Shown: piece after piece, positions 7,765-52,998 of the stretch | Numbering within the stretch: position 1 is the stretch's first letter | Layout: the number at the start of each line of letters is the position of its first letter | NCBI RefSeq assembly: GCF_000168975.1 | Contig: NZ_AAUW01000019.1 | Coordinates: 1-64,000, forward strand | DNA length: 64,000 nucleotides | From: Roseibium aggregatum IAM 12614 | GTDB lineage: Bacteria; Pseudomonadota; Alphaproteobacteria; Rhizobiales; Stappiaceae | Direction of reading: 5' to 3' | Notes under the pieces: generated by a model | Told to the model about the DNA's origin: nothing | Database searches by the model: none | What the model saw: only the letters and a program-made list of their open reading frames with translations | Made by a program: the position numbers and the translations under genes

Positions 7765-7947
7765 ATGGATCTAGGCCCACACGCTGGTTTCATCTGGGCT
7801 TCCTACGGCCTTTGTCTTCTGACAGTCCTCGGCCTGATCGCCTGGGTGCGCATCGACAAGGCCCAGCAGGAAAAAGCCCTCAAGGACCTGGCTGCCCGGG
7901 GCATCTCGCGCGCCCGGCCGGCCGGCGAAGGAAAAACAAGCTCATGA
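7765..7947 (+). CDS. ccmD: Heme exporter protein CcmD
   Basis: A 60-residue protein with one N-terminal membrane segment (about 8-27, from FIWASYGLCLLTVLGLIAW) and a charged cytoplasmic tail (RIDKAQQEKALKDLAARG), the standard CcmD layout. It stabilises the CcmABC complex and helps release holo-CcmE. GGAG lies 8 bases before the ATG. It sits 5 bases after ccmC and overlaps ccmG by ATGA, so the three genes are co-translated. Confidence 0.92.
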   Translation: MDLGPHAGFIWASYGLCLLTVLGLIAWVRIDKAQQEKALKDLAARGISRARPAGEGKTSS

Positions 7948-8564
7948 CGTCCCACGATACCGGTGCCGGACAAGCCGAACCGCGAACCGCAAAACGCGGG
8001 TTCCCGGTTCTGGTGCTGCTGCCGCTGGTGGTGTTCGCCGGCCTTGCCGCCCTGTTCCTGTTTAAGCTGACCCTTGGCGGCGACCCGCAGAAAATTCCCT
8101 CCGCGCTGATCAACAAACCGGCGCCGGAATTCGACCTGCCGCCGGTCGAAGGCCTGACCGAGGGCCACACTGCTGTTCCCGGATTTTCCCGCCAGGATCT
8201 CAGCGGCAAGATTTCGGTCGTCAACGTGTTTGCCTCCTGGTGCGTGCCCTGCCGCCAGGAACACCCGCTTCTGGAAGACCTGGCCAAGGTCGAGGGCATT
8301 CAGCTTCTCGGCATCAACTACAAGGACAAGCCGGAAAACGCGCGCCGGTTTCTGGGCAGCCTCGGCAATCCCTATCAGCGCGTCGGCGCCGATACCGCCG
8401 GCCGCACGGCCATCGAATGGGGGGTCTACGGTGTGCCGGAAACCTTCGTCATCGATGGGGACGGCATGATCCGGTACAAGTTCATCGGCCCGCTGAGCAG
8501 TGAAACCTACCAGAACGTCTTCCTGCCCGAACTGAAGAAGATCATGGCCAGCGACAAATCCTGA
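7944..8564 (+). CDS. ccmG: Thiol:disulfide interchange protein CcmG/DsbE
   Basis: A membrane-anchored periplasmic thioredoxin that reduces apocytochrome c. It has one N-terminal anchor (about 20-43) and a thioredoxin fold with the active site WCVPC (C100, C103) and the cis-proline region GVPETFVID. Length is 206 residues. The start overlaps ccmD. It is the last gene of the ccmCDG unit; about 190 bases without a gene follow before the epimerase. Confidence 0.93.
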   Translation: MTSHDTGAGQAEPRTAKRGFPVLVLLPLVVFAGLAALFLFKLTLGGDPQKIPSALINKPAPEFDLPPVEGLTEGHTAVPGFSRQDLSGKISVVNVFASWCVPCRQEHPLLEDLAKVEGIQLLGINYKDKPENARRFLGSLGNPYQRVGADTAGRTAIEWGVYGVPETFVIDGDGMIRYKFIGPLSSETYQNVFLPELKKIMASDKS

Positions 8565-8755: not shown

Positions 8756-9676
8756 TTGAAAGTTCTTGTGATCGGCGGCTGCGGGTTCATCGGCTCTCAC
8801 GTGGTGGACAAGTGCCTGCAGGAAGGCCTGTCGGTGCGGGTCATGGACACACGGCCGGAACTCTACCGGCCACCGCTTCCCGGCGTCGACTACGTGTTTC
8901 AGGATCTGTCCGATCATCACCGGCTTGCCGGTGCTCTGGCCGGTGTGGACGCCGTGGTGCATCTGGCCAGCACGACCGTTCCCTCGACATCGAACCTCGA
9001 TCCGGCGGCGGATATCGCCGGCAACCTCATTCCAACGGTGCGTCTTCTGGAGGCCATGCGGGCCAGCGGTACGCGAAAACTGGTCTTCTTCTCCTCCGGC
9101 GGCACGGTTTACGGTATTCCGGCGAAGGACCCGGTGCCGGAGGACCACCCGCTGAACCCGATCTCCTCCTACGGCATCGTCAAGGCAGCGATCGAACAGT
9201 ACCTGCGCATGGAACAACAGCTCCACGGGCTGGAGTTCGCCGCGCTGAGGCCGGCGAACATCTATGGACCGCGCCAGGCGCAGGTCGGTCTGCTTGGCGT
9301 GATCGGAACCTACCTGCGGAAGGTGTCGGATGATGAACCCATCGAAATCTGGGGCGACGGCAGCATCGTGCGCGACTTCGTTCACGTCGAGGATGTTGCC
9401 GACCTTTGTCACCGCGCTCTGGTCTCGAACGCTTCCGGCAGCTTCAATGCCGGAAGTGGCGTAGGCACGTCCATTTCACAAATCGTCGAGATCATCAGCC
9501 AGACCACGGGCCACCCCGTGCAACCGGTCTACAAGCCGGGCCGGAACTTCGACGTGCCACGAGTGGTTCTGGACATCGCCAAGGCACAGGCGACATTCGA
9601 CTGGCTGCCCACCGTACCGCTTCACCGCGGCATCCGGGAAACCTGGGACTGGGTGAGGAGTCAGAGTGCCTCTTGA
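8756..9676 (+). CDS. NAD-dependent sugar-nucleotide epimerase/dehydratase (extended SDR)
   Basis: A 306-residue extended short-chain dehydrogenase, like UDP-glucose 4-epimerases. The NAD-binding GGCGFIG is at 7-13, the FSSGGTVYG segment carries the catalytic Ser, and YGIVK (Y139, K143) is the active pair. RPANIYGPRQ and GDGSIVRDFVHVEDVA are family signatures. The start is a TTG with AGAGG upstream; the protein begins MKVLVIGG. It is the first gene of a same-strand run leading to lipid glycosyltransferases, so it could supply UDP-galactose or a related sugar. The exact substrate is not proven. Confidence 0.85.
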   Translation: MKVLVIGGCGFIGSHVVDKCLQEGLSVRVMDTRPELYRPPLPGVDYVFQDLSDHHRLAGALAGVDAVVHLASTTVPSTSNLDPAADIAGNLIPTVRLLEAMRASGTRKLVFFSSGGTVYGIPAKDPVPEDHPLNPISSYGIVKAAIEQYLRMEQQLHGLEFAALRPANIYGPRQAQVGLLGVIGTYLRKVSDDEPIEIWGDGSIVRDFVHVEDVADLCHRALVSNASGSFNAGSGVGTSISQIVEIISQTTGHPVQPVYKPGRNFDVPRVVLDIAKAQATFDWLPTVPLHRGIRETWDWVRSQSAS

Positions 9677-9804
9677 AGGTCCAACGGCACACGATCCCGC
9701 CGGACCAGCCATTTCAGAAGATTTACCCATAATAAATCAGCGCCAGCATAGATAAGCCGGGCTCCAGGGTCTTTATTGACCATGAGTAAAGGGGGAATGT
9801 GCGC

Positions 9805-10923
9805 ATGAATGTAACCGGCGGCGGGGCAAAAGTCCGACTGGAACAATTGACCGGACTGCGCTTTTTCGCAGCCTTGCTGGTCTTCGGAGTGCATTTCCGC
9901 TGGGATACGAGCGGCGATTTCGTCAAGACCATCGCCGAGCAGGGCTACGTCGGCGTCTCGTTCTTCTTCATCCTGTCCGGCTTCGTGCTGACGCAGTCCT
10001 ACAAGACGAGGATCCTTGCCGGCACGATTTCCTTCCGCAAATACTTCCTGCTCCGGATTGCCCGCCTGACGCCCCTGCATTTCCTCACGGGCCTGCCGTT
10101 TCTCTACTTCTCGATCATGCAGGTCGAGGCGATCTACTCCGAGGAATTCAGCGTCATCAAGACGGTCCTGAACCTGACCTATCTGCAGAGCTGGGTTCCC
10201 GTCTCGTCGATCTATTTTTCTCTGAACGCGCCCTCCTGGTCTCTGTCGGACGAGATGTTCTTCTATCTGTGCTTCTTCGCCCTGGTCACCTTTTCACCGC
10301 GCAAGCTTCTTGCTTTGACGCTGGGGCTCGGCCTTGTGGTGTTTATTTCCGCTGTTCTCGTTCAGCTTTTCCTGGGCGAGGTGATCTTCTTCGGCAAATA
10401 CCCGTTCTCCCATTGGCTGTTCTATGTCTTTCCGGGCTTCCGCATCCTGGAGTTTCTGGTCGGCATGCTGCTGCACGAGGTCTGGCGCCGCGGTGTCCGG
10501 CTGCCCGGCATGGTGCAGCCACTCAGCTATCTTCTGCTGTTCCTGACCATGTGGCTGGCCCCGGACGTGCCGGACCCGTTCCGCTACTCCCTGTTCTTTC
10601 TTCCGGTGATCACCCTGTTCTTCTTTGCACACCTGACGGAAGGCGCGGCACTTACCCGGGTGTTTGCAACCCGCCCGCTCGTGCTGCTCGGCAACGCTTC
10701 TTTCGCCTTCTACCTGGTCCACCAGCCGTCGCTCCATCTGATGAACATCTTCCTGCGGCCGGCCATCCCGGCGGATGTCGTTTTCTTTCCGGTTTCGCTG
10801 TGCATCACCGCCGCGTTTTCGGTCTTCCTCTACAAGGTTTACGAAATGCCGGCGGAACGTGCCTTGAAATCCTGGGTCAACGGCAAAAGACCGGTGCCAG
10901 CACCGAACAAGGCGCTGCCGTGA
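9805..10923 (+). CDS. Acyltransferase 3 family membrane protein
   Basis: A 372-residue protein with about ten membrane spans. The start LRFFAALLVFGVHF and YVGVSFFFILSGFVL, and the downstream LRIARLTPLHFL, are the conserved opening of the acyltransferase 3 (OafA/NolL-like) family; the family's usual His is H in GVHF. These enzymes O-acylate sugars of polysaccharides, LPS or glycolipids. The ATG at 9805 has GGGGG 9 bases upstream and is preferred over the GTG at 9799. The acceptor is unknown; the neighbourhood suggests a glycolipid or surface sugar. Confidence 0.88.
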   Translation: MNVTGGGAKVRLEQLTGLRFFAALLVFGVHFRWDTSGDFVKTIAEQGYVGVSFFFILSGFVLTQSYKTRILAGTISFRKYFLLRIARLTPLHFLTGLPFLYFSIMQVEAIYSEEFSVIKTVLNLTYLQSWVPVSSIYFSLNAPSWSLSDEMFFYLCFFALVTFSPRKLLALTLGLGLVVFISAVLVQLFLGEVIFFGKYPFSHWLFYVFPGFRILEFLVGMLLHEVWRRGVRLPGMVQPLSYLLLFLTMWLAPDVPDPFRYSLFFLPVITLFFFAHLTEGAALTRVFATRPLVLLGNASFAFYLVHQPSLHLMNIFLRPAIPADVVFFPVSLCITAAFSVFLYKVYEMPAERALKSWVNGKRPVPAPNKALP

Positions 10924-11067
10924 ACCGCAAGACTCTGCATCCCGGAGCGGCAGGCCGCTTAACATAATCTCAATGCTGACGGCCGATCATTGCGGCCAAC
11001 CGGCGCCATCAGACCACAGACCGCCAGCCGCCTCCCGGCCAGATTGGCACCAACCACGAGTATTCCG

Positions 11068-11694
11068 TTGCTTTCCGAACTAGCCTTTTCCGCCCTGACA
11101 GACGTGATCCTGGCGTGCGAGCTGTTTTTCCTCGCCGGCCTCAGCTTTCGCCCTGGCCTTCAGCCGTTCTCTCCTGCCTGGATCTGGGCGCTGACACTGG
11201 CCCTGATCGGGCTGGCCTCGATGCTGGGCGCGATTGATCACGGCTTCTTTGAAGCCATCGGCCACGAAGGGCACCGCCCGTTCGTGATCGTCACCCGGAT
11301 CGTCATTGTCCTGGGCAGTCTCAGCATGATCGTCGCGGCCAGCTTTCAGTATTTGTCCCCACCTCTGCGTCAGGGGTTTGTGGCTGCCGGTGCCCTGGGC
11401 GCGCTCTGGCCGGTCTTCATGATCCTGACCTCCGACGATTTTCTGTCGGTCATCCTCTATTACTCCGTCGGTCTTGTTTTCCTGCTTGTGCTCAGCATCT
11501 TCCGGTTCCGCCAGAACAGGGGCACGCTGGTGATGATCGCCGGCATTCTGCTGACACTGGGCGTCTCCGCGATGATCCTGATGCAAAGCCCGGGCTTCTG
11601 GGGCCTCGGCCTTTATGGCAGCTACCATGTTCTGCTGATGCCGATCGTCGTGCTTTTGTATTTCGGCGGCCGCTGGTTCAGGACCACGAGGTAG
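11068..11694 (+). CDS. Unrecognised multi-span membrane protein
   Basis: About 208 residues, with some seven hydrophobic helices spaced evenly from ELAFSALTDVILACELFFLAG to the C-terminal HVLLMPIVVLLYF, and very short loops. An acidic-aromatic loop AIDHGFFEAIGHEG follows the second span. I do not recognise the family with certainty (possibly DUF6962-like). I chose the TTG at 11068, where hydrophobic sequence begins; an in-frame TTG at 10990 would add a low-complexity Arg/Pro-rich tail. It sits directly before the cNMP/CPBP fusion gene, in line with the lipid genes. Confidence 0.65.
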   Translation: MLSELAFSALTDVILACELFFLAGLSFRPGLQPFSPAWIWALTLALIGLASMLGAIDHGFFEAIGHEGHRPFVIVTRIVIVLGSLSMIVAASFQYLSPPLRQGFVAAGALGALWPVFMILTSDDFLSVILYYSVGLVFLLVLSIFRFRQNRGTLVMIAGILLTLGVSAMILMQSPGFWGLGLYGSYHVLLMPIVVLLYFGGRWFRTTR

Positions 11695-11703
11695 GGTAAC
11701 CGC

Positions 11704-12843
11704 ATGCACAGCGCTTCCATTCCGGTTGAAGAAAAAACCCGCGAAACGGACGATCTTCAGGCGATCTTCCGGAAGATGACGGAGTTCATGCCGCAGCGGG
11801 TTGCCGACGCGGTACAGGCAGCCTCACGCAAGGTTCCTGTCGCAGCGCATGAGGATGTCATCGTCGAGGGAGAGTGCAACGACGCACTCTACATCGTGCT
11901 GGAAGGCACATTCGGCATCTACCGCAAGGGGGGAGAGACGGCCGCAGACCACCGTGTTGCGGAAATCGGTCCCGGGCAGCCCTTCGGCGAAATGGCTCTT
12001 CTGGACGGCGAACCACGTTCGGCGACGGTGCGCGCGGAAACAGACGGCATCGTGCTTGAAATCGAGCCGAATCGGATTCTTGAGCTTGCCGACGGGCAAG
12101 CCAGTCTAGCCGAGTTCAAGGGAGCGCTCGCCTCCTTCGTCACCCGGCGCATGCGCGCCTCCACGCAGGAGCACGTGGCGGCCCTGCAGCGCGAACTGGA
12201 CCTCAGGAACGAACAGCAACAGTTCGGCAAGTTCTTCGTCTACTCGCTGATCATGATGTCCATCGGCACGCTGGTGAACAACGTGCTGGCCCGCACCATC
12301 GTCCATGTGGATGTCTACACCGAGGTCTTCGCCTGGCAGTATCTCGCCATCCTGCTGGTTCCCAGCCTGTTCGTCATCCGCCACATGGGCATTTCGGTCG
12401 CGTCGCTCGGGATAACCACTGTCGGTCTGAAGAAATCCCTGATCGAAGGCGCGGTCATTTCAGTCGGGCTCTGCATCTTTGCATGGGGTCTGGCGGCGGT
12501 GCTCAAATCCTTCGACGCGCTACCTGGCAAACCATTGCCGTTCAATCTGCTGGGGACCCTGAGCTATTTTCTTCACAGCGCCCTGCAGGAAATCATCGCC
12601 AGAGGCTTTCTGCAGTCTTCCTTCCAGCGGTTTCTGGGCGACAAGGGCAAATGGCGCTCGGTTCTGCTGGCCTCGGTGTTGTTCGGAATGTTTCACCTGC
12701 ATTTCGGCATTCCTGCCGTGCTGATGACCATTGGCACCGGATTTATTTTCGGCTGGATCTACATCAGACACCAGAACATCGCCGGCGTGATACTCATTCA
12801 TTACATGATGGGTGTCGCAGCGTTCAATACAGGCTTGATCTGA
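11704..12843 (+). CDS. Cyclic-nucleotide-binding domain fused to a CPBP (CAAX protease-like) membrane domain
   Basis: A 379-residue two-domain protein. Residues about 20-150 form a CRP-type cNMP-binding domain with the phosphate-binding cassette FGEMALL...PRSATV (E96, R105 kept), so ligand binding is plausible. Residues about 175-379 are hydrophobic and resemble the CPBP/Abi family. The first motif EExxxR reads QEIIAR (Q295), the FxxxH motif is kept (F327, H331), and the third HxxxN/D reads HYMMG (H366, G370). With the first Glu and last Asn/Asp lost, it may be a non-catalytic relative. AGGGT precedes the ATG. It heads the desaturase/CFA/glycosyltransferase run. Confidence 0.82.
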   Translation: MHSASIPVEEKTRETDDLQAIFRKMTEFMPQRVADAVQAASRKVPVAAHEDVIVEGECNDALYIVLEGTFGIYRKGGETAADHRVAEIGPGQPFGEMALLDGEPRSATVRAETDGIVLEIEPNRILELADGQASLAEFKGALASFVTRRMRASTQEHVAALQRELDLRNEQQQFGKFFVYSLIMMSIGTLVNNVLARTIVHVDVYTEVFAWQYLAILLVPSLFVIRHMGISVASLGITTVGLKKSLIEGAVISVGLCIFAWGLAAVLKSFDALPGKPLPFNLLGTLSYFLHSALQEIIARGFLQSSFQRFLGDKGKWRSVLLASVLFGMFHLHFGIPAVLMTIGTGFIFGWIYIRHQNIAGVILIHYMMGVAAFNTGLI

Positions 12844-12900
12844 GACGCCAGCGTAAGCTAGTGCTGCTGCCTCGACCCTATCGCACCAGGTTGGAACGAC

Positions 12901-13836
12901 ATGATTGCGCGTGACTATTTCATACCTCGACCAGCCATCTATTTTCGCGATTTCGGTATTTACCTGGCGCTCTTTGTTGTCGGCTTCGTTTGGGGTGTGA
13001 ACGCTTCCTGGCCGATGGTAATCCTGCCCTGGCTGCTGGCGACCTTCGGCCTGCACCGCGCGGGCCTTTTCTGTCACGAGATCGTTCATATCAAGGACGA
13101 GAAGCTGCGCGGCTTCCGGGCATTCTACACCTGGACGGTGGCGCTCGTTGTCATGGTGCCGCCGTTGCGGTTCCAGTTGCCGCATCTGGCCCATCACCGG
13201 CTCGGCATCTTCGGAACGCCTGAAGATCCGCAATACCCGCTCGTGCGCGGCAATCCGTTTGCCATGGCCATGGTTCTGCTGGTCATCCCCTTCGTGGTGC
13301 CTTTCACCAATCTTCTGATGACGATAACCGCCGCGTTCGGCGCCTTCCGTCTGGAAGCCGCGCTCGACCGCTGGGCGACAGAGAAACTCGGCTTTTCGCT
13401 GAGCTCGTCGTTGACGCCCGAACAGCAGGTGGAAGTCAGCCGGCACGCCCGGGTTACGCTGGTGCTCTTTCTGGCCGCAATCGTCTTCTTCCCCGGCGCT
13501 CTGCCTTTCTATTATGCGGTGCTGGTTCTGGGATGGACGCTTCTGACCGCGCGCATTCCGCTGGAACATGAACTGGAACGCCTGGCCGAAACCTCCGGCC
13601 GGGAAGACCAGATGATCGACAGTTTCACGATAGAGTCGCCCCTGGCTCTGATCGTGCAGCCCGTGGGCTTTCGCTATCACACAGCACATCACATGTACCC
13701 CGGTGTTCCCTATCACAATCTGCCCGCGCTCCATGACGAGCTGAAGCGGACCATGCCGGAGTACAGGGACAGCATCATTTCGATTTGGACTGCGATCAGC
13801 GGGCCCAAACGCCGTCCTGCCAATTCTCTTCGTTGA
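12901..13836 (+). CDS. Membrane fatty-acid desaturase-like di-iron enzyme
   Basis: A 311-residue membrane protein with the three histidine boxes of desaturases/hydroxylases: HEIVH (59-63), HLAHH (95-99) and HTAHH (260-264), separated by hydrophobic spans. Members insert a double bond or hydroxyl into acyl chains or related lipids using O2 and electrons from ferredoxin or cytochrome. The next gene is a cyclopropane-synthase-like methyltransferase, whose known relatives act on double bonds, so the two could work in sequence. The chain position and substrate are unknown. The ATG has GGA about 6 bases upstream. Confidence 0.85.
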   Translation: MIARDYFIPRPAIYFRDFGIYLALFVVGFVWGVNASWPMVILPWLLATFGLHRAGLFCHEIVHIKDEKLRGFRAFYTWTVALVVMVPPLRFQLPHLAHHRLGIFGTPEDPQYPLVRGNPFAMAMVLLVIPFVVPFTNLLMTITAAFGAFRLEAALDRWATEKLGFSLSSSLTPEQQVEVSRHARVTLVLFLAAIVFFPGALPFYYAVLVLGWTLLTARIPLEHELERLAETSGREDQMIDSFTIESPLALIVQPVGFRYHTAHHMYPGVPYHNLPALHDELKRTMPEYRDSIISIWTAISGPKRRPANSLR

Positions 13837-13852
13837 TTCAGAAAGCCCACCG

Positions 13853-15085
13853 ATGAAAGACGTTATCCGCCAGCTCGCAGAAGCCATGTCTGCGGCTTCT
13901 CCTGACGCACAGTTCGAGGTTCGCTATTGGGACGGAACCGGCTTCTCCATCGGGACCGAGCCGGAGTTCATCCTGCATTTCAAGAACGAACGGGCACTTT
14001 CCAGGGTGCTGTCGGATGCCTTCATGGGCTTTGGCGAGAGCTACATGCTGGGTGATATCGAGGTGGAAGGCGACATCAAGAAGCTCTTCTACCTGGGCTT
14101 TGCCATCGATTTCGCGGAACGGCCCATGTCGTTGATGCTGCGGCTCAAGCTGGCGTTTCATTTTCTGCGCGCACGCAACACCATTGCCCGCTCGCGCGAG
14201 AACATTTCCTTCAGCTACGACATCGGCAACGATTTTTACGAGATCCTGCTCGGGAAGGGCATGATCTACACCTGTGCCTATTTCACCTCGCCCGACAACA
14301 CGCTGGATGAAGCGCAGAACAACAAGCTGGAGCTGGTCTGCCGCAAGCTGTGCCTGAAGCCGGGCGAACATATTGCCGATCTCGGCTGCGGCTGGGGCGG
14401 CTTTCTGATGTATGCCGCAGAAAACTACGGCATCACGGGTGTCGGCTTCACCATTTCGGCGGAACAGCGCGACTATGCGGTCCGGAAGATTGCCGAGCGG
14501 GGCCTCTCCGACAAGATCGAGATCCGCCTGAAGGACGCCCGCGAAGCGGACGGCCTTTACGACAAGGTTGCCTCGATCGGCATGGTCGAGCACATGGGCA
14601 ATGCCCAGATCGCACCGGTGTTCGAGCGGATCGCCCATATCCTCAAGCCGCAGGGTCTTGCCTTCGTCCACACGATCGGCAACGAGATCCCCCGGCCGAT
14701 CGACCCCTGGATCGACAAATACATCTTCCCTGGTACGCAGGCATCGCCGCTGACGACAATGGTCGAGGCCGCCGGCAAGAATGATCTCTACATGATCGAC
14801 CTTGAGAATATCCGGCTGCATTATCCGCCGACGGTCAAATACTGGCTCGCGAATTTCGACGCCAACATCGACCGTATCCGCGAGATGTATGACGACACCT
14901 TCGTCAGAAGCTTCCGGCTTTATCTGGAAGTGGCAAGTTCCTCCTTCAGTTGGGGCGACAACCGGCTGTACCATCTGCTGATGACCAAGGGGCTGAACAA
15001 CGACGTGCCGATGACCCGGGAGCATCTGGTTCTGCCAAAATCCGGCACGTCCACGGCCGGTGCGGCCCCGGAAGGTGGTGCATGA
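13853..15085 (+). CDS. Cyclopropane-fatty-acyl-phospholipid synthase family methyltransferase
   Basis: A 410-residue SAM-dependent enzyme of the Cfa family. Family blocks in order: ISFSYDIGNDFYEILLGKGM and YTCAYF (active-site Cys), the SAM-binding DLGCGWGGF, GFTISAEQ, then GMVEHMG (Glu) and FVHTIGN (His), and the C-terminal W/Y-rich block KYWLANFDANIDR. These match the residues known to bind bicarbonate and SAM in E. coli Cfa. It adds a methylene group across cis double bonds of membrane lipids, which fits the desaturase just upstream. It overlaps the next gene by ATGA. Confidence 0.9.
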   Translation: MKDVIRQLAEAMSAASPDAQFEVRYWDGTGFSIGTEPEFILHFKNERALSRVLSDAFMGFGESYMLGDIEVEGDIKKLFYLGFAIDFAERPMSLMLRLKLAFHFLRARNTIARSRENISFSYDIGNDFYEILLGKGMIYTCAYFTSPDNTLDEAQNNKLELVCRKLCLKPGEHIADLGCGWGGFLMYAAENYGITGVGFTISAEQRDYAVRKIAERGLSDKIEIRLKDAREADGLYDKVASIGMVEHMGNAQIAPVFERIAHILKPQGLAFVHTIGNEIPRPIDPWIDKYIFPGTQASPLTTMVEAAGKNDLYMIDLENIRLHYPPTVKYWLANFDANIDRIREMYDDTFVRSFRLYLEVASSSFSWGDNRLYHLLMTKGLNNDVPMTREHLVLPKSGTSTAGAAPEGGA

Positions 15086-16299
15086 CGGATCCCGTCCATG
15101 TGGCAGTGATCTATACGGACGCAGGCGGTGGCCACAGGGCCAGCGCCTTCGCCCTCAAAGCATGTCTCGAAGGGTCCGGCAGATACAGGGTCAGCCTGAT
15201 AAACCCCTATACCACGTTGATCCCTCATCTCGACCTGTTCAGCCGCTTCGGCTCGCGTACAGGCGAGAACATCTACAACGAGGTCATCTTGCGGCAGGGG
15301 CGCACGGGTCTCACCTGCTGGCTCTTTTATGCTGCCCTCCGCCTGAACTACGTGTTCTGCGAAAGGCCGGCCATCAGCATCCTTGCCCGGCATTTCGAAG
15401 ACATCCGCCCGGACGTTGTGCTTTCGGTGATGCCGCTGGGAAACCGGGTGATGCTGGAGGCGCTGAAACGCTACCGCGCCACCATAACCGACGGTCTGCT
15501 GCCCGAAGGCGCGGTGATGATCACCGACTGGGCGGAACTGGCAAGGGGCGTCTGGTTTCCCAACCGGGCTGACTATCACGCGATTTGCGGCACGCAGGAC
15601 GCCTTGCGCAATGCTGAAAAACTGCCGAAGCTTGCCGGCAAGGTCCATGCGATGGGCGGCCTGCTGATCCGGCCGGAGTTCACCAACCCGGCGGAGCGTG
15701 CCAGCAAGCAGGCGCTGAACCTTGATCCTGCCAGGCCGGTCGTGACCGTGCTATACGGCGCCCAGGGCAGCATGCGCATGCTCGAACTGGCCAAGGCAAT
15801 GCGAGACGTTCCGCACACTGCCCAGGTGGTGTTTCTTTGTGGCCGGAACGAAGCGCTTGCAGGCGAACTGCGCACCATGGACCTGCCGTATCCGGTCCAG
15901 GTGCTCGGATTTACCGACAAGGTTGCGCAGTATCTTTCCGCCAGTGATCTTTTTATCGGCAAACCCGGGCCGGGCAGCACCAGCGAAGCCATGGCGCTCG
16001 GCCTGTCCATGCTGCTCGACACGAGCCTGGCGCTGCCGCAGGAAGCCGCTGTCCTGCGCCATGTTGTAAAGACGGGCGCCGGACAGGCCTTTTCGACATC
16101 GGCCGATTTTTCACAGCACTTCAAGGCAGCCATAACCGCCATCGAGAGCGGCCAGGCACGGCAGCCGCTTGCCGCCAACACCTCGCCAGCCGACATCCTT
16201 GAGATCATGGACCGCATCGGCGCTTCCCGCGTTCCGGCTGCGGGCTCTTTGCAGCCGACCGGTGAATTGCCGCGCACCCGGCATGTTTCCAGAGCCTGA
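15082..16299 (+). CDS. MGDG-synthase/MurG-like (GT28) lipid glycosyltransferase
   Basis: A 405-residue protein. The N-terminus VAVIYTDAGGGHRASAFAL is the glycine-rich acceptor loop of plant MGDG synthase and bacterial processive diacylglycerol glycosyltransferases. The C-terminal nucleotide-sugar half shows VLYGAQGS, VVFLCGRNEALAG, QVLGFTDKV and FIGKPGPGSTSEAMALG, the GT28 donor site. It probably moves a hexose from a UDP-sugar to diacylglycerol on the cytoplasmic face. The ATG overlaps the Cfa-like stop (ATGA) and a diacylglycerol-kinase-like gene follows 3 bases later, so all three are tightly co-translated. The sugar cannot be read from sequence. Confidence 0.85.
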   Translation: MTDPVHVAVIYTDAGGGHRASAFALKACLEGSGRYRVSLINPYTTLIPHLDLFSRFGSRTGENIYNEVILRQGRTGLTCWLFYAALRLNYVFCERPAISILARHFEDIRPDVVLSVMPLGNRVMLEALKRYRATITDGLLPEGAVMITDWAELARGVWFPNRADYHAICGTQDALRNAEKLPKLAGKVHAMGGLLIRPEFTNPAERASKQALNLDPARPVVTVLYGAQGSMRMLELAKAMRDVPHTAQVVFLCGRNEALAGELRTMDLPYPVQVLGFTDKVAQYLSASDLFIGKPGPGSTSEAMALGLSMLLDTSLALPQEAAVLRHVVKTGAGQAFSTSADFSQHFKAAITAIESGQARQPLAANTSPADILEIMDRIGASRVPAAGSLQPTGELPRTRHVSRA

Positions 16300-16302
16300 C
16301 CG

Positions 16303-17235
16303 ATGCCTGAGGATGACCAGGGCTCCGCGACGGGAGGCAGCCGCCCACCAGAACACAATCTGAAGATCAGGGTTGTCTACAACCCCCGCACAGGCCACAA
16401 GCGCGAGAACCGCTTCCGCACCGTCCTGGCCCTGCTTGAGGCAGGCGGACATACTTGCGAAATCCTGACCACGACGAAGGCAGGCGATGCTGCCGCTTTC
16501 GTTCGGGAAACGACATCAGGCGACGCCGATATCCTGGCAATTGCAGGGGGCGACGGCACGATCAATGACGCGGTCCAGGGCGCCGGACCGCAAACACCTC
16601 CGCTCGGTCTCATTCCCCTTGGAACGGCGAATGTGCTGGCCCATGAACTGGGCATCGGTACGGATCCGCACAAGATTGCAAGCTGCCTCCTGGAAGCGCA
16701 CGTCCTCAAGGTCCAGCCCGGTCAGGTCAACGGTCATCGCTTCATGATGATGACCGGCATCGGTCTCGACGCCCAGGTGGTGTCGGGCCTCAGCCGCGCA
16801 ACCAAGACCCGCTTCGGCAAGATGGCCTATCTCTTGGAGGTCTTCCGCACCCTGCAGCGCTGGTCCTGCCCGCCGCTGGATATCCAGATGGACGGCAAGG
16901 CCGTTCAGGCGGCCACACTCATTGTCAGCCGTGGAAAGCGCTATGGCGGGACCTTCGTGCTCGCACCACGCTGCGACCTCGCCGACGCGGGGCTGCACGT
17001 TACGGTGTTCCCCCCCGGCGGCTCCCTGTCGGTCTTTGGGCGCTTTTTGCTGATACCAACTGGTCTTCTGCTACGGCTTGGCCTTGCCGTTCAGCACCCT
17101 GTGCGGACGGTCGAAATTCTTGGCCCCGCAGGCGACCCGATACAGGCCGACGGCGACATTGTTGCCCATGTTCCGGCGCAGATTTCGGTATGCGACGAGA
17201 CGATACGCCTTTGCGTTCCAAAGCCGCTGCGCTGA
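16303..17235 (+). CDS. Diacylglycerol/lipid kinase family protein (DAGK catalytic domain)
   Basis: A 310-residue protein with the DAGK/sphingosine-kinase fold: VVYNP near the start, the nucleotide-binding GGDGTIND at 82-89, the IPLGTANVLAHEL segment (about 104-116) and a C-terminal beta-rich lipid-binding domain. It should phosphorylate diacylglycerol or a similar lipid alcohol, returning to phospholipid synthesis the diacylglycerol that the adjacent glycosyltransferase would otherwise use. It starts 3 bases after that gene. A convergent glycosyltransferase gene ends 25 bases downstream. Confidence 0.88.
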   Translation: MPEDDQGSATGGSRPPEHNLKIRVVYNPRTGHKRENRFRTVLALLEAGGHTCEILTTTKAGDAAAFVRETTSGDADILAIAGGDGTINDAVQGAGPQTPPLGLIPLGTANVLAHELGIGTDPHKIASCLLEAHVLKVQPGQVNGHRFMMMTGIGLDAQVVSGLSRATKTRFGKMAYLLEVFRTLQRWSCPPLDIQMDGKAVQAATLIVSRGKRYGGTFVLAPRCDLADAGLHVTVFPPGGSLSVFGRFLLIPTGLLLRLGLAVQHPVRTVEILGPAGDPIQADGDIVAHVPAQISVCDETIRLCVPKPLR

Positions 17236-17259
17236 GTTCAGCAGCGAGCGACCTCAGTC

Positions 17260-18414
17260 TTATAGTCCGGCGAGCCCGGCGAGACGGCGGCAGGCACTCA
17301 TCCAGTCAAAATCCTCACGTGCGGCAACCGGCGGCTCCGGCACTGTCTTCAAGGCATAATCCAGCGCCTCAAGCGCACCGTCCAGCTCGGTATAGAAATG
17401 CGCGTTGGGATAGGCCTTGTAGGGAAGGTTGCCCGGGCAATCGGGCAGGATGACGTGCCGGCCGGCAACCAGCGCATCGGCGGTGGCGGTACACAGGATC
17501 TCGCTGCGGGAGGGGTTCACCATGATGCGGTACCGACCGATATCGGACCAGAACCGTCGGTTCGGTCCGAGGAACCGCAAGTCTGCGCCTTCCTTTCGCG
17601 CAAAGGCGCGAAACTCCGCTTCATCCCGGCCGCCGCCGATGACATCGATGGATCTGCCTGCACGAGCCGCGATACGGGCAAGGTCGTCCAGGCCTTTCTC
17701 CCAGAGAAACGCCCCCAGGAAGTAGATCCCTTCTGTTTCTTCCGTAACCAGCGGCACCTGCGCATAGCCGGGCATGACGCCGGTCACCCGTTCCACCGGC
17801 ATGGTGACGCCCGGCAAGGTCAGCGCCGGTGACAGGCTGAGAGGAAGATCGATGCGCAGCCGCAGGGCGCGGCCATGAAGATAAGACACCAGCCGGGCAA
17901 GACTGTTTGGAAACGGCAGCCCGGACATGCGGATGTAAGTTTCGTAATCGGTCATGCAGAGGCCGATGGTCTTGTCCGCGCGGATCCCCTTGCGCCCGGT
18001 CGTCGCCGGATACCAGCACAGGTGCTCCGGTTCGCTGGCGACCAGACACCGGGCTGGCGGGGCGGCGCGGTAGACGTCTTCCATCGGCACGATCGAGCCC
18101 ATGCCTGCAACGTAACGCGCCCGATAGGGCCGGCACTCCGGCAGCTTATAGGGTCCGAAGGACTGAAGCTCGCTCTGTAACCAGGTGAGCTGCTCTTCAA
18201 AATCGGCAAAGCGCGCCTCGCCCCACAGGTGTTGCTGCGAGTGCGCATCGAGCCAGGGCAGAACATAGACGACGCGATATCCAAGGGCCGTTAGGCCACA
18301 GGCATGCCAGAGCGAGATGAAGGAGGGACCGGTCATCCACGGAAGCGCGGCGCTTGTCAGCACAGCAAAGTCACAGATCTCATGACCTTTGTTTTGTTCG
18401 CCAGGCAGGGGCAC
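17260..18414 (-). CDS. DGD1-like (digalactosyldiacylglycerol synthase type) GT4 glycosyltransferase
   Basis: About 384 residues. From memory of plant DGD1, several blocks line up in order: TSAALPWMTG (DGD1 TTASLPWMTG), VYVLPWLDAHSQQ (VIPWLSLKDQ), SEPEHLCWYP (EEPEHLTWFH), IGLCMTDYETYI (VVHTNYLEYV), FLGAFLWEKGLDDL (IGAYVWSKGYKEL) and MVNPSRSEILCTATADAL (FLNPSTTDVVCTTTAEAL). This makes a second galactosyl or hexosyl transfer onto a glycosyldiacylglycerol likely. The start is uncertain: GTG at 18414 has GGAG 4 bases upstream; GTG at 18363 would cut the first beta strand. It is convergent with the MGDG-synthase-like operon. Confidence 0.8.
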   Translation of the reverse strand: MPLPGEQNKGHEICDFAVLTSAALPWMTGPSFISLWHACGLTALGYRVVYVLPWLDAHSQQHLWGEARFADFEEQLTWLQSELQSFGPYKLPECRPYRARYVAGMGSIVPMEDVYRAAPPARCLVASEPEHLCWYPATTGRKGIRADKTIGLCMTDYETYIRMSGLPFPNSLARLVSYLHGRALRLRIDLPLSLSPALTLPGVTMPVERVTGVMPGYAQVPLVTEETEGIYFLGAFLWEKGLDDLARIAARAGRSIDVIGGGRDEAEFRAFARKEGADLRFLGPNRRFWSDIGRYRIMVNPSRSEILCTATADALVAGRHVILPDCPGNLPYKAYPNAHFYTELDGALEALDYALKTVPEPPVAAREDFDWMSACRRLAGLAGL

Positions 18415-18762
18415 TAGTCTCCGGTTTAAACGAGCAGGACCACGGAACGTTACCCGGCCGAGACCTGGCAGACTATGCGATACATGCCAGCCAAGGCACG
18501 GGGCAACAGCTTGGCACACGTCATCAACCACATGTTTCTCGCCTCCCGGACAATCCGGCATTGCCTGCAGGGGCAGCCAGCCAGGCAGAAAGGCTGATCG
18601 TCGCTCCTGCCGTTTTTGCCGAAGGCACCCCCGCGCCAAATGGTGAAGCCCTGTCACAAACGCGCGAATGAGGACGTCTATTGGCAAAGTCACCCGCTCG
18701 TGACTTTCGGTTGAGAGCGCGATTGCATATTTTAGAAGCACTCGAACAAGGAAATGAACCAA
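18415..18762. promoter_or_regulatory. Divergent intergenic region between the DGD1-like and DUF1223 genes
   Basis: 348 bases without a convincing gene. It must hold both promoters. The one clear structure is an inverted repeat at 18684-18705, AAAGTCAC-CCGCTC-GTGACTTT, with perfect 8-bp arms, about 60 bases before the DUF1223 start. It could be an operator. I see no clear -35/-10 pair. Confidence 0.4.
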
Positions 18763-19536
18763 ATGGTGGGATCGTTCTCCCGGAAGGCCGGAAAAGCCCT
18801 CCGAACAGTGTTTTTTGTAACCGGCGGAATAGTTGCCCTGTCCGCCCCGGTGAACAGCGCCCTGGCGCAGCCCGAAAAGGTCATTGAACTGTTTACCAGC
18901 CAGGGCTGCTCCTCCTGCCCACCGGCCGATCGGCTGGCGGAAAAGCTGGTGGAGGAAGACAACAACGTTCTGACCATGGTGCTGCCGGTGGATTACTGGG
19001 ATTACCTTGGCTGGAAGGACACGCTGGCAAGCCCCGTCAATTCGCAGCGCCAGCGCGCCTATGCGACGCGGCGCGGCGACCGGTCGGTCTACACTCCGCA
19101 AATGGTGATCAACGGTGAAGAACATGTCATCGGTAGCCGCGAGGGGGACGTCAGGGCCGCATTGGAACGTACGGATCCCTTCACCGCCAAGATCGATCTG
19201 AAAATCACCGACATGGTCGTTCAGGCGACGGTGAACGGCACCCTGCCAAAGGGGTACAACATGGCGACGATCTATTTCCTGCGCATGCAGGATGAGGCTC
19301 TGGTCGACATCGGCCGCGGCGAAAACGCAGGCCGCAAGGTGCGTTATGTCAATGTGGTGCGCAACCTGCAGCCCATGGGGATGTGGTCCGGCGGCCAGGA
19401 AACCTTCCGCATGCCCAAGTCCAAGCTGATGCTCAAGGGCGATGCCCGTTGCGCGGTTGTCGTGCAGCTTGAAAATAGAGATGGCCCGGGCCGGATCATT
19501 GGCGCTGCCACGATGAACAGGATCGGCGGTCTCTGA
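18763..19536 (+). CDS. DUF1223 exported thioredoxin-like protein
   Basis: About 257 residues, with an N-terminal signal or anchor segment (TVFFVTGGIVALSAPVNSALA) and then the DUF1223 core: VIELFTSQGCSSCPPADRL, with a CxxC-like Cys pair in a thioredoxin setting, DYWDYLGWKDTLAS and YTPQMVINGEEHVIGS. The periplasmic role is unknown; a redox or metal-binding function is inferred only from the cysteines. AAGGA lies 10 bases before the ATG at 18763 but only one base before the in-frame ATG at 18754, so I prefer 18763. Confidence 0.85.
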   Translation: MVGSFSRKAGKALRTVFFVTGGIVALSAPVNSALAQPEKVIELFTSQGCSSCPPADRLAEKLVEEDNNVLTMVLPVDYWDYLGWKDTLASPVNSQRQRAYATRRGDRSVYTPQMVINGEEHVIGSREGDVRAALERTDPFTAKIDLKITDMVVQATVNGTLPKGYNMATIYFLRMQDEALVDIGRGENAGRKVRYVNVVRNLQPMGMWSGGQETFRMPKSKLMLKGDARCAVVVQLENRDGPGRIIGAATMNRIGGL

Positions 19537-50752: not shown

Positions 50753-51142
50753 TCAGGCGTCGACCACCCGAAGGTGTTTTTTCTTCTCCAGAACCCTCAG
50801 AACCTGCGCCAGATCGTGGCCACGCTTAAGGATCATGCCCCCGGTTGCCACGACCGAATAAGCGCCCTGGCGACGGGCCAGCTTCGGATCCTTCTCGATC
50901 CGATAGAGCGGCATTTCGGAAGATCTGCGAAACACGGAGAAGATTGCCCGGTCCTTTAGAAGATCAATGGCGTAGTCCCGCCACTCGCCGTCGGCAACCA
51001 TGCGCCCGTAAAGCCGCAGGATGACATCGAGTTCGCGCCTGTTGAAGGCAACAATGGGTTTGGGAGGGGGAGCCGGGTGATGTTGTGGCGACGGGCCTGT
51101 CCCCGCACCACGCTGAAACGCGCTGTCGTCGGCCTCGCTCAT
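50753..51142 (-). CDS. DUF2794 family protein
   Basis: A 129-residue soluble protein. The Pro/His-rich N-terminus is followed by the conserved core PIVAFNRRELDVILRLYGRMVADGEWRDYAID and FRRSSEMPLYRIEKDPKL, which I recognise as DUF2794, a family common in alphaproteobacteria with no known function. It is a single gene, convergent with the BI-1-like gene. Confidence 0.88.
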   Translation of the reverse strand: MSEADDSAFQRGAGTGPSPQHHPAPPPKPIVAFNRRELDVILRLYGRMVADGEWRDYAIDLLKDRAIFSVFRRSSEMPLYRIEKDPKLARRQGAYSVVATGGMILKRGHDLAQVLRVLEKKKHLRVVDA

Positions 51143-51606
51143 TCCGCCTCCATTCCGCTCGCGGTTCCGCCGAAACAGGCAATCGCCAAGAGAATCGTCG
51201 AGGCAATACCTGTCACCTGCCTGTCATGATGCGTCTTCTTTGGCCAGTCTGGCAAGCCCGCAACGTCATAATGACCAACACCGGCGTGGCACCAGCGTAG
51301 TTTTGCCAATAAGTTTCCCGGGGAGAAGTGTAAAAACGAACGTTACGGCACTTTGCCAAGAAAGAATGCTTAAATTTCCTTGATTTTGCCGCATTCCAGC
51401 CCTTGGCCAGCCATTTTAACCACCCATATTATGATCATACCCTGATGGGTATGGCCCGTAGAAGCCGCGGAATGCATTAGCCCCCCAGCCCCCCGGGGTT
51501 TTTACTGGCCAACCAGATTTAATGAGTCAAACATCAGGGCAACTGAAGGGCCGGCATTATGCCGGCCCTTTTCATTTCTGGGCGCGCCTTCCCTTCTGCT
51601 TGCAGC
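51143..51606. other. 464-bp intergenic region with several hairpins; possible small-RNA locus
   Basis: No protein gene is convincing. On the plus strand there is a perfect hairpin at 51436-51453 (CATACCC-TGAT-GGGTATG), a short CCCC-CC-GGGG stem followed by TTTTT near 51490-51503, and a strong terminator at 51546-51573. No upstream plus-strand gene needs these terminators: the nearest gene upstream is on the minus strand. A short AT-rich stretch with CATATTATG at about 51425 could hold a -10 box. This pattern fits a small RNA but is not proof. Confidence 0.4.
51546..51573. terminator. Strong hairpin terminator
   Basis: AAGGGCCGGC-ATTAT-GCCGGCCCTT followed by TTC on the plus strand. On the minus strand it lies 34 bases after the stop of the MocR-type gene but has only a weak T tail, so it may serve both directions. 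Confidence 0.8.
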
Positions 51607-52998
51607 TTACTTCAGAAAATCCCGCAGGAATGACAGCAGCCTTGCATCGGTTCCATAGGCGACGTTGACCCGCATCGCCGGCTTCTGCCGCGTCTCCCGG
51701 TTCGGATAGAAGACGGACCCCGGCGCAATGAAGATGCTTTGTCGGCTGGCTGCTGCACACAGGTCCCGTTCGTCCACATCATCGGGAAACTCCACCCAGA
51801 GATAGAACCCCGGTATCGAACATTCCCGGACGGACAGGCCGATGGCCTCCAGAGTTCCGAAGGATGCCTTGTAGGCCTCCTCCACCCTGCTCCTGAGACG
51901 GCGCAGGTGCCTTAGATAGTGCCCGGCCTGGATCAGGTTGAACACGAACCGTTCCACGTGATCGGAAGAATTGACCAGCGTCAGCATCTTGATGTCGGCA
52001 AGCCGGCGGATGATGTCAGGGTTTCCCGCCACATAACCGCACCTGAGACTGGCGGACAGGGTCTTGGAGAAGGTACCCAGATAAAGCACGCGCTGGAGCT
52101 GGTCGAGGGCAGCGAGCCTCGGCAGCGTGGCCGGCAGGATGTCTGCAAGCGCATCGTTCTCGACCAGAAGAAACCCCCAGCGCTCGGCAAGCTGCATCAA
52201 CCCGAATGACCGCGATGGCGACAGCGATCCGCCGGTCGGATTGTGGCCGTGGGACTGGGTCACGAACATCTTCGGCCGGTAAAGAGCCAGTTTCGCGGTC
52301 AGGTCTTCCAGGTCCGGACCGTCCCGGTCACGCCGAATACCGACAATCTGCACCTTGGCAAAGGTCAGCTTGGAAAAGAGCGGGTAATAGCCCGGTTCAT
52401 CGACAAAAACCGTATCACCGGGCTCTGTCAGATGCCGGATGATCAGGTCCAGACCGTGATTGACGCCATGGGTCAAAAGAAGCCCCTGCGGATCGGCCGG
52501 GATCGACCGCTCCAGCAACTGCATCCGCAGCCGGTCTCTCAACGGGCCATATCCCCACGAACTGCCGTAGCCGAATTCGATCGCGTCGGGAAAGGGTGTC
52601 TTGGCATTGGCGAAATGGCGGCGCAGCTCCGCCCCTTCCATCCAGGACGGCGGCGGGCGCCCGTCACCCGGGCGCACTTCATAGTGCTGCTCCAACTGCT
52701 CCCGCAGCAGCGACATGCCATCGACCGCAGCCGTGACATGAGGCGCAGGCGGGGTCTTGGTTGCAGGTCCGACCTGTGACATGTAGTACCCGGAGCCGGC
52801 CCGTGCTTCCAGAAGTCCCCGGGCGACCAGCCGGTCGTAGGCCTCCGCCATCGTGTTTTTGGAAACGCCGTTTTCCCGCGCAGCCTGACGGATGGAAGGC
52901 AGTCGCTCGAAGGTCTTATACGCCCCGGCCTCGAGCAACAACGCCACCTTCTCGACGATCTGGTCAACGCGAGACAGTTTCCGACTGCTACTCGTCAC
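51607..52998 (-). CDS. MocR-type transcriptional regulator (GntR HTH + aminotransferase domain)
   Basis: A 463-residue protein. Residues about 1-75 are a GntR winged helix (FERLPSIRQAARENGVSKNTMAEAYDRLVARGLLEARAGSGYY). The rest is a fold-type I aminotransferase domain with VTQSHGHNPTGG and the PLP lysine in GTFSKTLSASLRCGYV. MocR proteins such as PdxR, TauR and GabR bind direct repeats at divergent promoters and respond to PLP plus an effector. It is divergent from a TRAP-HMG-CoA reductase operon, with TGTCCC repeats between, so it probably controls that operon and itself. Confidence 0.92.
   Translation of the reverse strand: MTSSSRKLSRVDQIVEKVALLLEAGAYKTFERLPSIRQAARENGVSKNTMAEAYDRLVARGLLEARAGSGYYMSQVGPATKTPPAPHVTAAVDGMSLLREQLEQHYEVRPGDGRPPPSWMEGAELRRHFANAKTPFPDAIEFGYGSSWGYGPLRDRLRMQLLERSIPADPQGLLLTHGVNHGLDLIIRHLTEPGDTVFVDEPGYYPLFSKLTFAKVQIVGIRRDRDGPDLEDLTAKLALYRPKMFVTQSHGHNPTGGSLSPSRSFGLMQLAERWGFLLVENDALADILPATLPRLAALDQLQRVLYLGTFSKTLSASLRCGYVAGNPDIIRRLADIKMLTLVNSSDHVERFVFNLIQAGHYLRHLRRLRSRVEEAYKASFGTLEAIGLSVRECSIPGFYLWVEFPDDVDERDLCAAASRQSIFIAPGSVFYPNRETRQKPAMRVNVAYGTDARLLSFLRDFLK

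Follow-up and report, generated by a model that had tools for sequence, protein, structure and literature searches.

A conserved gene block in Roseibium aggregatum predicted to encode a glycosyldiacylglycerol synthesis cassette with MGD-like and DGD-like enzymes

In plants and algae, galactolipids are made by MGD1 and then by DGD1 or DGD2, which belong to the glycosyltransferase families GT28 and GT4, respectively. A 2016 review regarded homologues of DGD1/2 as confined to plants and algae (PMC4742570), and in 2019 some proteobacterial DGD homologues were noted, with the direction of transfer described as unclear (PMC6946739). Other bacterial routes have been reported: the cyanobacterial MgdA-MgdE-DgdA pathway leads to monogalactosyl- and digalactosyldiacylglycerol (MGDG and DGDG) through a GT2 enzyme, MgdA, and a glucolipid epimerase, and its DgdA has been reported to lack homology to DGD1 (PMC4742570, PMC8227023). 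The PlcP-Agt remodelling system yields glycosyl-diacylglycerols in marine Alphaproteobacteria, and the route of marine heterotrophic bacteria to DGDG “awaits further characterization” according to the same article (PMC4796936). Here, we describe a block of nine genes at positions 8756–18414 of a 64,000-nucleotide stretch (hereafter, the window) of contig NZ_AAUW01000019.1 of Roseibium aggregatum IAM 12614. With somewhat more confidence than doubt, we read this block as an accessory glycolipid-synthesis cassette that would make mono- and then diglycosyl-diacylglycerols with modified acyl chains.

The block resembles the plant and algal pathway in combining the same two families in the same expected order, in keeping the MGD1 residues in its GT28, and in having DGD2 as by far the closest fold of its GT4. 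In contrast to that pathway, both bacterial genes lie in one cluster with acyl-chain enzymes, and the GT4 lacks His151 of DGD2. The expected products would be like those of PlcP-Agt remodelling; however, the block has other gene neighbours, contains no PlcP-type gene, and has no Pho box nearby. It shares the GT28 family and the predicted diacylglycerol acceptor with the processive diacylglycerol glucosyltransferase of PDB entry 9wde, whereas its GT28 best matches MGD1 and the second sugar would apparently be added by the separate GT4. The end products of the cyanobacterial pathway would also be alike. The cassette is assembled from known families, and their linkage as a unit of this kind was not found among the matches listed from the open-access literature subset searched.

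The GT28 gene (15082–16299, plus strand) most likely encodes an MGD-like monoglycosyldiacylglycerol synthase, as predicted from its sequence. Among all PDB sequences, its product matched just two, MGD1 (4wyi, E = 1.2e-27) and 9wde (4.5e-10), and a profile search gave 1.3e-37 and 1.1e-23, respectively; the match to 9wde fell into two pieces, with part of its N-domain skipped. Plant MGD1 was thus the closest solved relative, in agreement with the original prediction of an MGD-type enzyme. The MGD1 residues His155, which we take to be the catalytic residue, Glu438, Gly432, Pro433, Gln455, and Glu456 were invariant in all 25 bacterial GT28 proteins, and Phe413 was retained in 23 of them. In 9wde, the position of Pro433 is occupied by Gly. 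Glu438 of MGD1 has been assigned to ribose binding and Phe413 to uracil stacking (PMC12022483). The sole Pfam domain matched by the block GT28 was Glyco_tran_28_C.

The GT4 gene (17260–18414) is convergent to the others on the minus strand, and its product is only barely matched by Pfam. The sole match among all PDB sequences was DGD2 (8p6s, E = 6e-33), and a five-sequence profile improved the value to 6e-65. An AF2 model built from 24 sequences (pLDDT 90.3) had the same protein as its best Foldseek match (E = 2e-29, TM 0.82), the next fold following at 1e-12. In an alignment of 27 rows, 26 of which are distinct (L055 equals G203 in sequence), the UDP-site residues Thr21, Gly22, and Lys243 were invariant, and position 313 held Glu in 26 rows and Asp in one. 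Position 321, which corresponds to Glu321 of the DGD2 UDP site, held Glu in 19 rows, Asp in seven, including the window protein, and Leu in one. The dN/dS values of 0.05–0.08 indicated strong purifying selection; for this reason, we interpret the Met or Leu found at the His151 position as a sign that the acceptor, sugar, or mechanism has changed, and not as decay. The original prediction had called this enzyme DGD1-like. DGD2 is indeed its closest relative in both sequence and fold, but a plain DGD1 assignment is unsafe, as the window protein has Met at this position. Because Met or Leu replaces His151 in 25 of the 27 rows, the protein is designated here as DGD-like and not simply as DGD.

Scanning a collection of species genomes with the GT4 alignment gave 22 loci, and gene families were counted over the window and 21 further loci, L050 being excluded since it lies on the same contig as L014 (G054). 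Besides the GT4 bait (22 of 22), the GT28 family was found in 17 loci, each time within approximately 10 kb of GT4, followed by the desaturase (16), SDR (16, the least informative count, as this superfamily is large), DUF6962 (15), CPBP (15), kinase (10), Cfa (10), and acyltransferase 3 (6) families. Four of the five loci without GT28 are on contigs of 3.8–10.9 kb, and the fifth, L057, is on one of 21 kb. Outside the genus, the complete nine-gene set was present in both Pseudodonghicola species and in one alphaproteobacterial metagenome-assembled genome (MAG). Rearranged sets of six to eight families occurred in Rhodospirillaceae UBA6219, Albimonas, Thalassospira, Terasakiella, Caenispirillum, Pararhodospirillum, and a Methylocystaceae MAG, and partial sets in BAL199, a few further MAGs, and the purple sulfur bacteria Imhoffiella and Lamprobacter. 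A Verrucomicrobia MAG carried GT4 and a GT28 of 22% identity, with no other block families. Apart from the two purple sulfur bacteria, the block thus recurs chiefly in Alphaproteobacteria. In an even draw of 385 genomes of the class, GT28 was matched in five and GT4 in 13, only three of the latter matches being strong (the genome studied here, G203, and G466); the genome studied here and G466 hold both genes, which are about 6 kb apart in G466. Since both families are so rare, chance linkage is not credible. The homologues, whose neighbourhoods had been proposed for comparison in the original prediction, were not scattered, and the neighbourhood proved common to several genera and classes. The block is real and conserved, and this putative glycolipid cassette probably moves horizontally.

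The limits of the block were examined within the genus. It is flanked on the left by dsbE/ccmG, one of the cytochrome c maturation genes (7944–8564, plus strand), and on the right by a DUF1223 gene (18754–19536, plus strand), both lying outside it. Among the 45 genus genomes, loci were compared in 30, three with the block and 27 without it. In all of the latter (L023–L049), ccmG was directly beside DUF1223, with about 100–250 bases between the matches. Thus, the block ends where it had first been drawn to end, and it looks like an insertion; we infer gain of the block rather than loss. In the GTDB family, GT28 and GT4 were each matched in six of 87 genomes. The close orthologues of both (at least 69% identity) were confined to four genomes, identical for the two genes and all from a single genus, where they lie about 1 kb apart; the two remaining GT28 matches had 29–30% identity, and of the two remaining GT4 matches, one had 29% and the other was partial at 34%. 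The nine genes are colinear and at the same site as in the window in G054 and G035. In G072 (R. suaedae), they are at another genomic site, with the acyltransferase and epimerase swapped. A foreign base composition was considered and rejected, the GC content of the block (60.5%) being equal to that of the window (60.4%). Carriage on plasmids was also rejected: among 72,556 plasmid records, GT4 had no match, and GT28 had relatives of just 24–34% in five. Separately, in G014 of the same family, a distant GT28 (~27–30%) stands beside a distant cNMP-CPBP fusion (24%) at L017:9360-12315, together with a ketoacyl-synthase-like open reading frame (ORF) and no GT4, an independent pairing of GT28 with cNMP-CPBP.

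All nine genes were found at the coordinates originally claimed for them, and the claimed families were upheld by Pfam and NCBIfam matches. The arrangement was confirmed as well: Cfa and GT28 share an ATGA overlap (15082–15085), 3 bases separate the end of GT28 (16299) from the start of the kinase gene (16303), and the convergent GT4 follows after a 24-base gap (17235/17260). Across the eight block genes compared (all except DUF6962), dN/dS was 0.04–0.16. A promoter scan saw one site, with 2.6 expected. The proposed substrates, products, step order, and regulation are read from sequence. GT28 would transfer a hexose from a UDP-sugar, most likely galactose or glucose, to diacylglycerol, and GT4 would add the second sugar. 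The SDR (8756–9676, plus strand, as are all genes described below; Pfam Epimerase, 2e-50) would supply or alter the sugar nucleotide; it is a divergent GalE-like protein, not a GalE equivalog. A true GalE is encoded elsewhere in the genome (C20, 430.7 bits), and two of the four SDRs tested from related loci, L063 and L064, are true GalE proteins (408 bits against the NCBIfam galE cut-off of 262). On these two grounds, galactose is likely the sugar. Surplus diacylglycerol would be converted to phosphatidic acid by the kinase, which is of the diacylglycerol kinase or YegS type (16303–17235; Pfam DAGK_cat, 1e-26, and YegS_C).

The acyl chains would receive a double bond from the desaturase and then a cyclopropane or methyl group from Cfa. 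The membrane fatty acid desaturase (12901–13836; Pfam FA_desaturase, 1e-31) has its three His boxes in all 15 sequences checked, the window included and the partial L059 excluded; it had no solved relative in the PDB at E 0.1. Cfa is a Cfa/CMAS methyltransferase of the cyclopropane type (13853–15085; Pfam CMAS, 9e-75), the best PDB matches of which were cyclopropane-fatty-acyl-phospholipid synthases. Its His motif was recognized by a simple pattern in seven of ten block Cfa proteins. CFAS genes have been typed in Labrenzia genomes, including L. suaedae, in a paper whose text does not contain “glycosyl” (PMC6213206); the listing may include the block Cfa. Three further Cfa homologues are present in the genome, one of which (G000:C45:174229-175389) has an in-frame TGA within the match.

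The polytopic acyltransferase 3 (9799–10923; Pfam Acyl_transf_3, 9e-23) would decorate a hydroxyl of the head group. This family was found in the window and in L051–L055 (six loci), and a small SAM methyltransferase family in L060–L065, L067, L068, and L070 (nine loci; three Pfam-scanned). The two never co-occur at one locus, which suggests that they are alternative decorations of the product, possibly of its head group. The gene earlier described as a membrane protein corresponds to DUF6962 (11068–11694; Pfam DUF6962, 1.5e-38), with a refined start: homologues suggest TTG at 11068 and not 10990. Its AF2 model (pLDDT 94.7) has seven helices. Foldseek against the PDB gave a designed GPCR-like fold as the best match (E = 8.7e-3), then rhodopsins, AdipoR1 (TMq 0.63), and myomaker; against a viral library, ceramidase was best (E = 1.6e-3), with hemolysin III also matched (TMq 0.52–0.67 for both). 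These matches give a weak hint of a CREST-like (ceramidase, PAQR) fold. The protein may be a CREST-type membrane hydrolase and, with the sensor-CPBP protein, an accessory or regulatory part of the cassette. The latter is a fusion of a cNMP-binding domain with a CPBP/Rce1-like membrane domain (11704–12843; Pfam cNMP_binding, 9e-18, and Rce1-like, 2e-15). The CPBP/Rce1-like glutamic proteases have the motifs EExxxR and FxxxH and a further His; in the block proteins, QExxxR, FHxH, and the last His were invariant in 14 of 14 aligned sequences, L058, split into two ORFs, being excluded. The sensor is a cNMP domain in the window and a PAS domain in Lamprobacter (L068:11285-12331). The two accessory proteins might link the pathway to cNMP or, where PAS takes its place, to a different signal. 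The N-terminus of L067:11171-12217 aligns like that of the PAS-CPBP protein of L068, a sensor swap.

A number of observations weigh against the cassette as interpreted above. The window SDR scores 168 bits, and those of L051 and L068 score 174 and 75 bits, all under the galE cut-off. What was earlier termed a “UDP-sugar epimerase” is more precisely an SDR with a Pfam Epimerase match that does not reach GalE, and, since the block SDR falls under this cut-off, the galactose head group is a prediction in this lineage. The Pfam family PF06925 (MGDG_synth) had no match at 1e-3 in the genome, and the GT28 tree joined MGD1 to 9wde (96/89) instead of to the block proteins, both being long-branched in a tree with one plant row. 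The GT4 position of DGD2 His151 held Met in 22 rows, Leu in three, Glu in one, and His in one, and the GT4 also lacks N26 of DGD2 and, in the window protein, has K238 replaced by A and E321 by D. The CPBP motif has Gln in place of the first Glu of EExxxR, and the fold matches of DUF6962 are weak and mixed, rhodopsin- and GPCR-like folds being placed no lower in the PDB than the CREST-like ones. The correlation between GT28 and GT4 pairwise identities (r 0.82, reached in 0 of 9999 permutations, 19 genomes), in itself a point in favour of the cassette, is confounded by common species history. A published genus-level polar-lipid list covering R. suaedae names no glycolipid and includes unidentified lipids (PMC12080928), which suggests that the block product may be conditional or absent. 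As to origin, the placement of plant DGD2 in the GT4 tree was weakly supported (67/44), with long branches; in view of this and of the joining of MGD1 to 9wde, we make no claim on the direction of transfer.

It is possible, though we do not favour it, that the cassette makes glucosyl- or mixed-sugar diacylglycerols, with a GT28 like the processive diacylglycerol glucosyltransferases and an SDR that makes another UDP-sugar, in which case “galactolipid” would be a misnomer here. The low SDR score and the pairing of MGD1 with 9wde are consistent with this, as are the best NCBIfam match of GT28, a diglucosyl diacylglycerol synthase (58 bits, far under its cut-off of 500), and the galactose-contacting residues of DGD2, His151 and N26, which are mostly unconserved in the GT4 family. 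However, GT28 matches MGD1 better than 9wde in both searches, shares Pro433 with MGD1 and not with 9wde, and is accompanied by true GalE in two related clusters and elsewhere in the genome. We consider it unlikely that the acceptor is another lipid (hydroxylated, sphingoid, or with a special acyl chain made by the desaturase and Cfa) and the product a specialised glycolipid, not one of the bulk lipids of the membrane. The dedicated desaturase and Cfa, maintained despite the three further Cfa homologues, the weak ceramidase/PAQR likeness of DUF6962, and the 12 of 22 loci, some on short contigs, in which Cfa was not found would fit such a product; on the other side, the MGD1 acceptor is diacylglycerol, 9wde is named a diacylglycerol glucosyltransferase, a kinase of the diacylglycerol kinase family is linked in 10 of the 22 loci, and no serine palmitoyltransferase or ceramide gene is among the block genes. 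A degenerate or non-catalytic GT4, leaving a monoglycosyl lipid as the only product, seems distinctly improbable. His151 contacts galactose in DGD2 and was conserved in all structures compared, and three related enzymes were catalytically dead once their equivalent His had been mutated (PMC12022483), so the Met or Leu in 25 of 27 rows speaks for this possibility, but the low dN/dS of GT4, its invariant UDP contacts T21, G22, and K243, the Glu or Asp at 313, and a linkage to GT28 that spans classes argue against it.

The original prediction had also suggested that the lipids might replace phospholipids in phosphate-poor sea water. Marine heterotrophs do replace phospholipids by glycolipids (PMC4796936), but a phosphate-starvation cassette equivalent to the PlcP-Agt systems appears improbable here. 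No PlcP-type gene was present among the nine block genes or in the DUF1223 gene, the search for PlcP/Agt being limited to these, and the regulator-like gene carries a cNMP or PAS domain. Pho-box control was rejected: with a Pho-box consensus and up to three mismatches over the 64 kb, five matches were obtained (3.4 expected), none of them in or beside the block, and with up to two mismatches, the 16 block regions had two matches compared with 0–2 in each of ten shuffles. Apart from the block, a one-mismatch Pho-box-like site is located at 51210–51227 of the window, between ORFs 50753–51142 and 51607–52998, both on the minus strand.

The linkage of MGD-like and DGD-like genes makes the origin of DGD1/2 and marine DGDG synthesis testable in cultured bacteria, and cultured carriers are available among the loci, namely Pseudodonghicola, Thalassospira, Terasakiella, Caenispirillum, and R. 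suaedae. The His-less GT4 offers a test of why a conserved catalytic residue is required, and the presence of the sensor-CPBP and DUF6962 genes hints that membrane lipids are controlled in a way not yet described. A bolder version of the cassette is tentative, and we doubt it as a whole: a self-contained, transferable, plant-type galactolipid operon comprising MGD/DGD-like enzymes, GalE or another SDR, chain modifiers, a CREST-like protein, and an exchangeable sensor-CPBP controller, in which the GT4 proteins form a DGD clade that has lost the His and differs in mechanism or head group. If this were true, the linked pair would be a plausible source type for an early alga that gained the two chloroplast enzymes jointly, and might also explain the synthesis of diglycosyl-diacylglycerols in marine heterotrophs. 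Finally, related long ORFs were observed near GT4 in L056, L057, and L059, each of these loci having at least two copies; the one scanned (L057:15562-17277) encodes a radical SAM protein.

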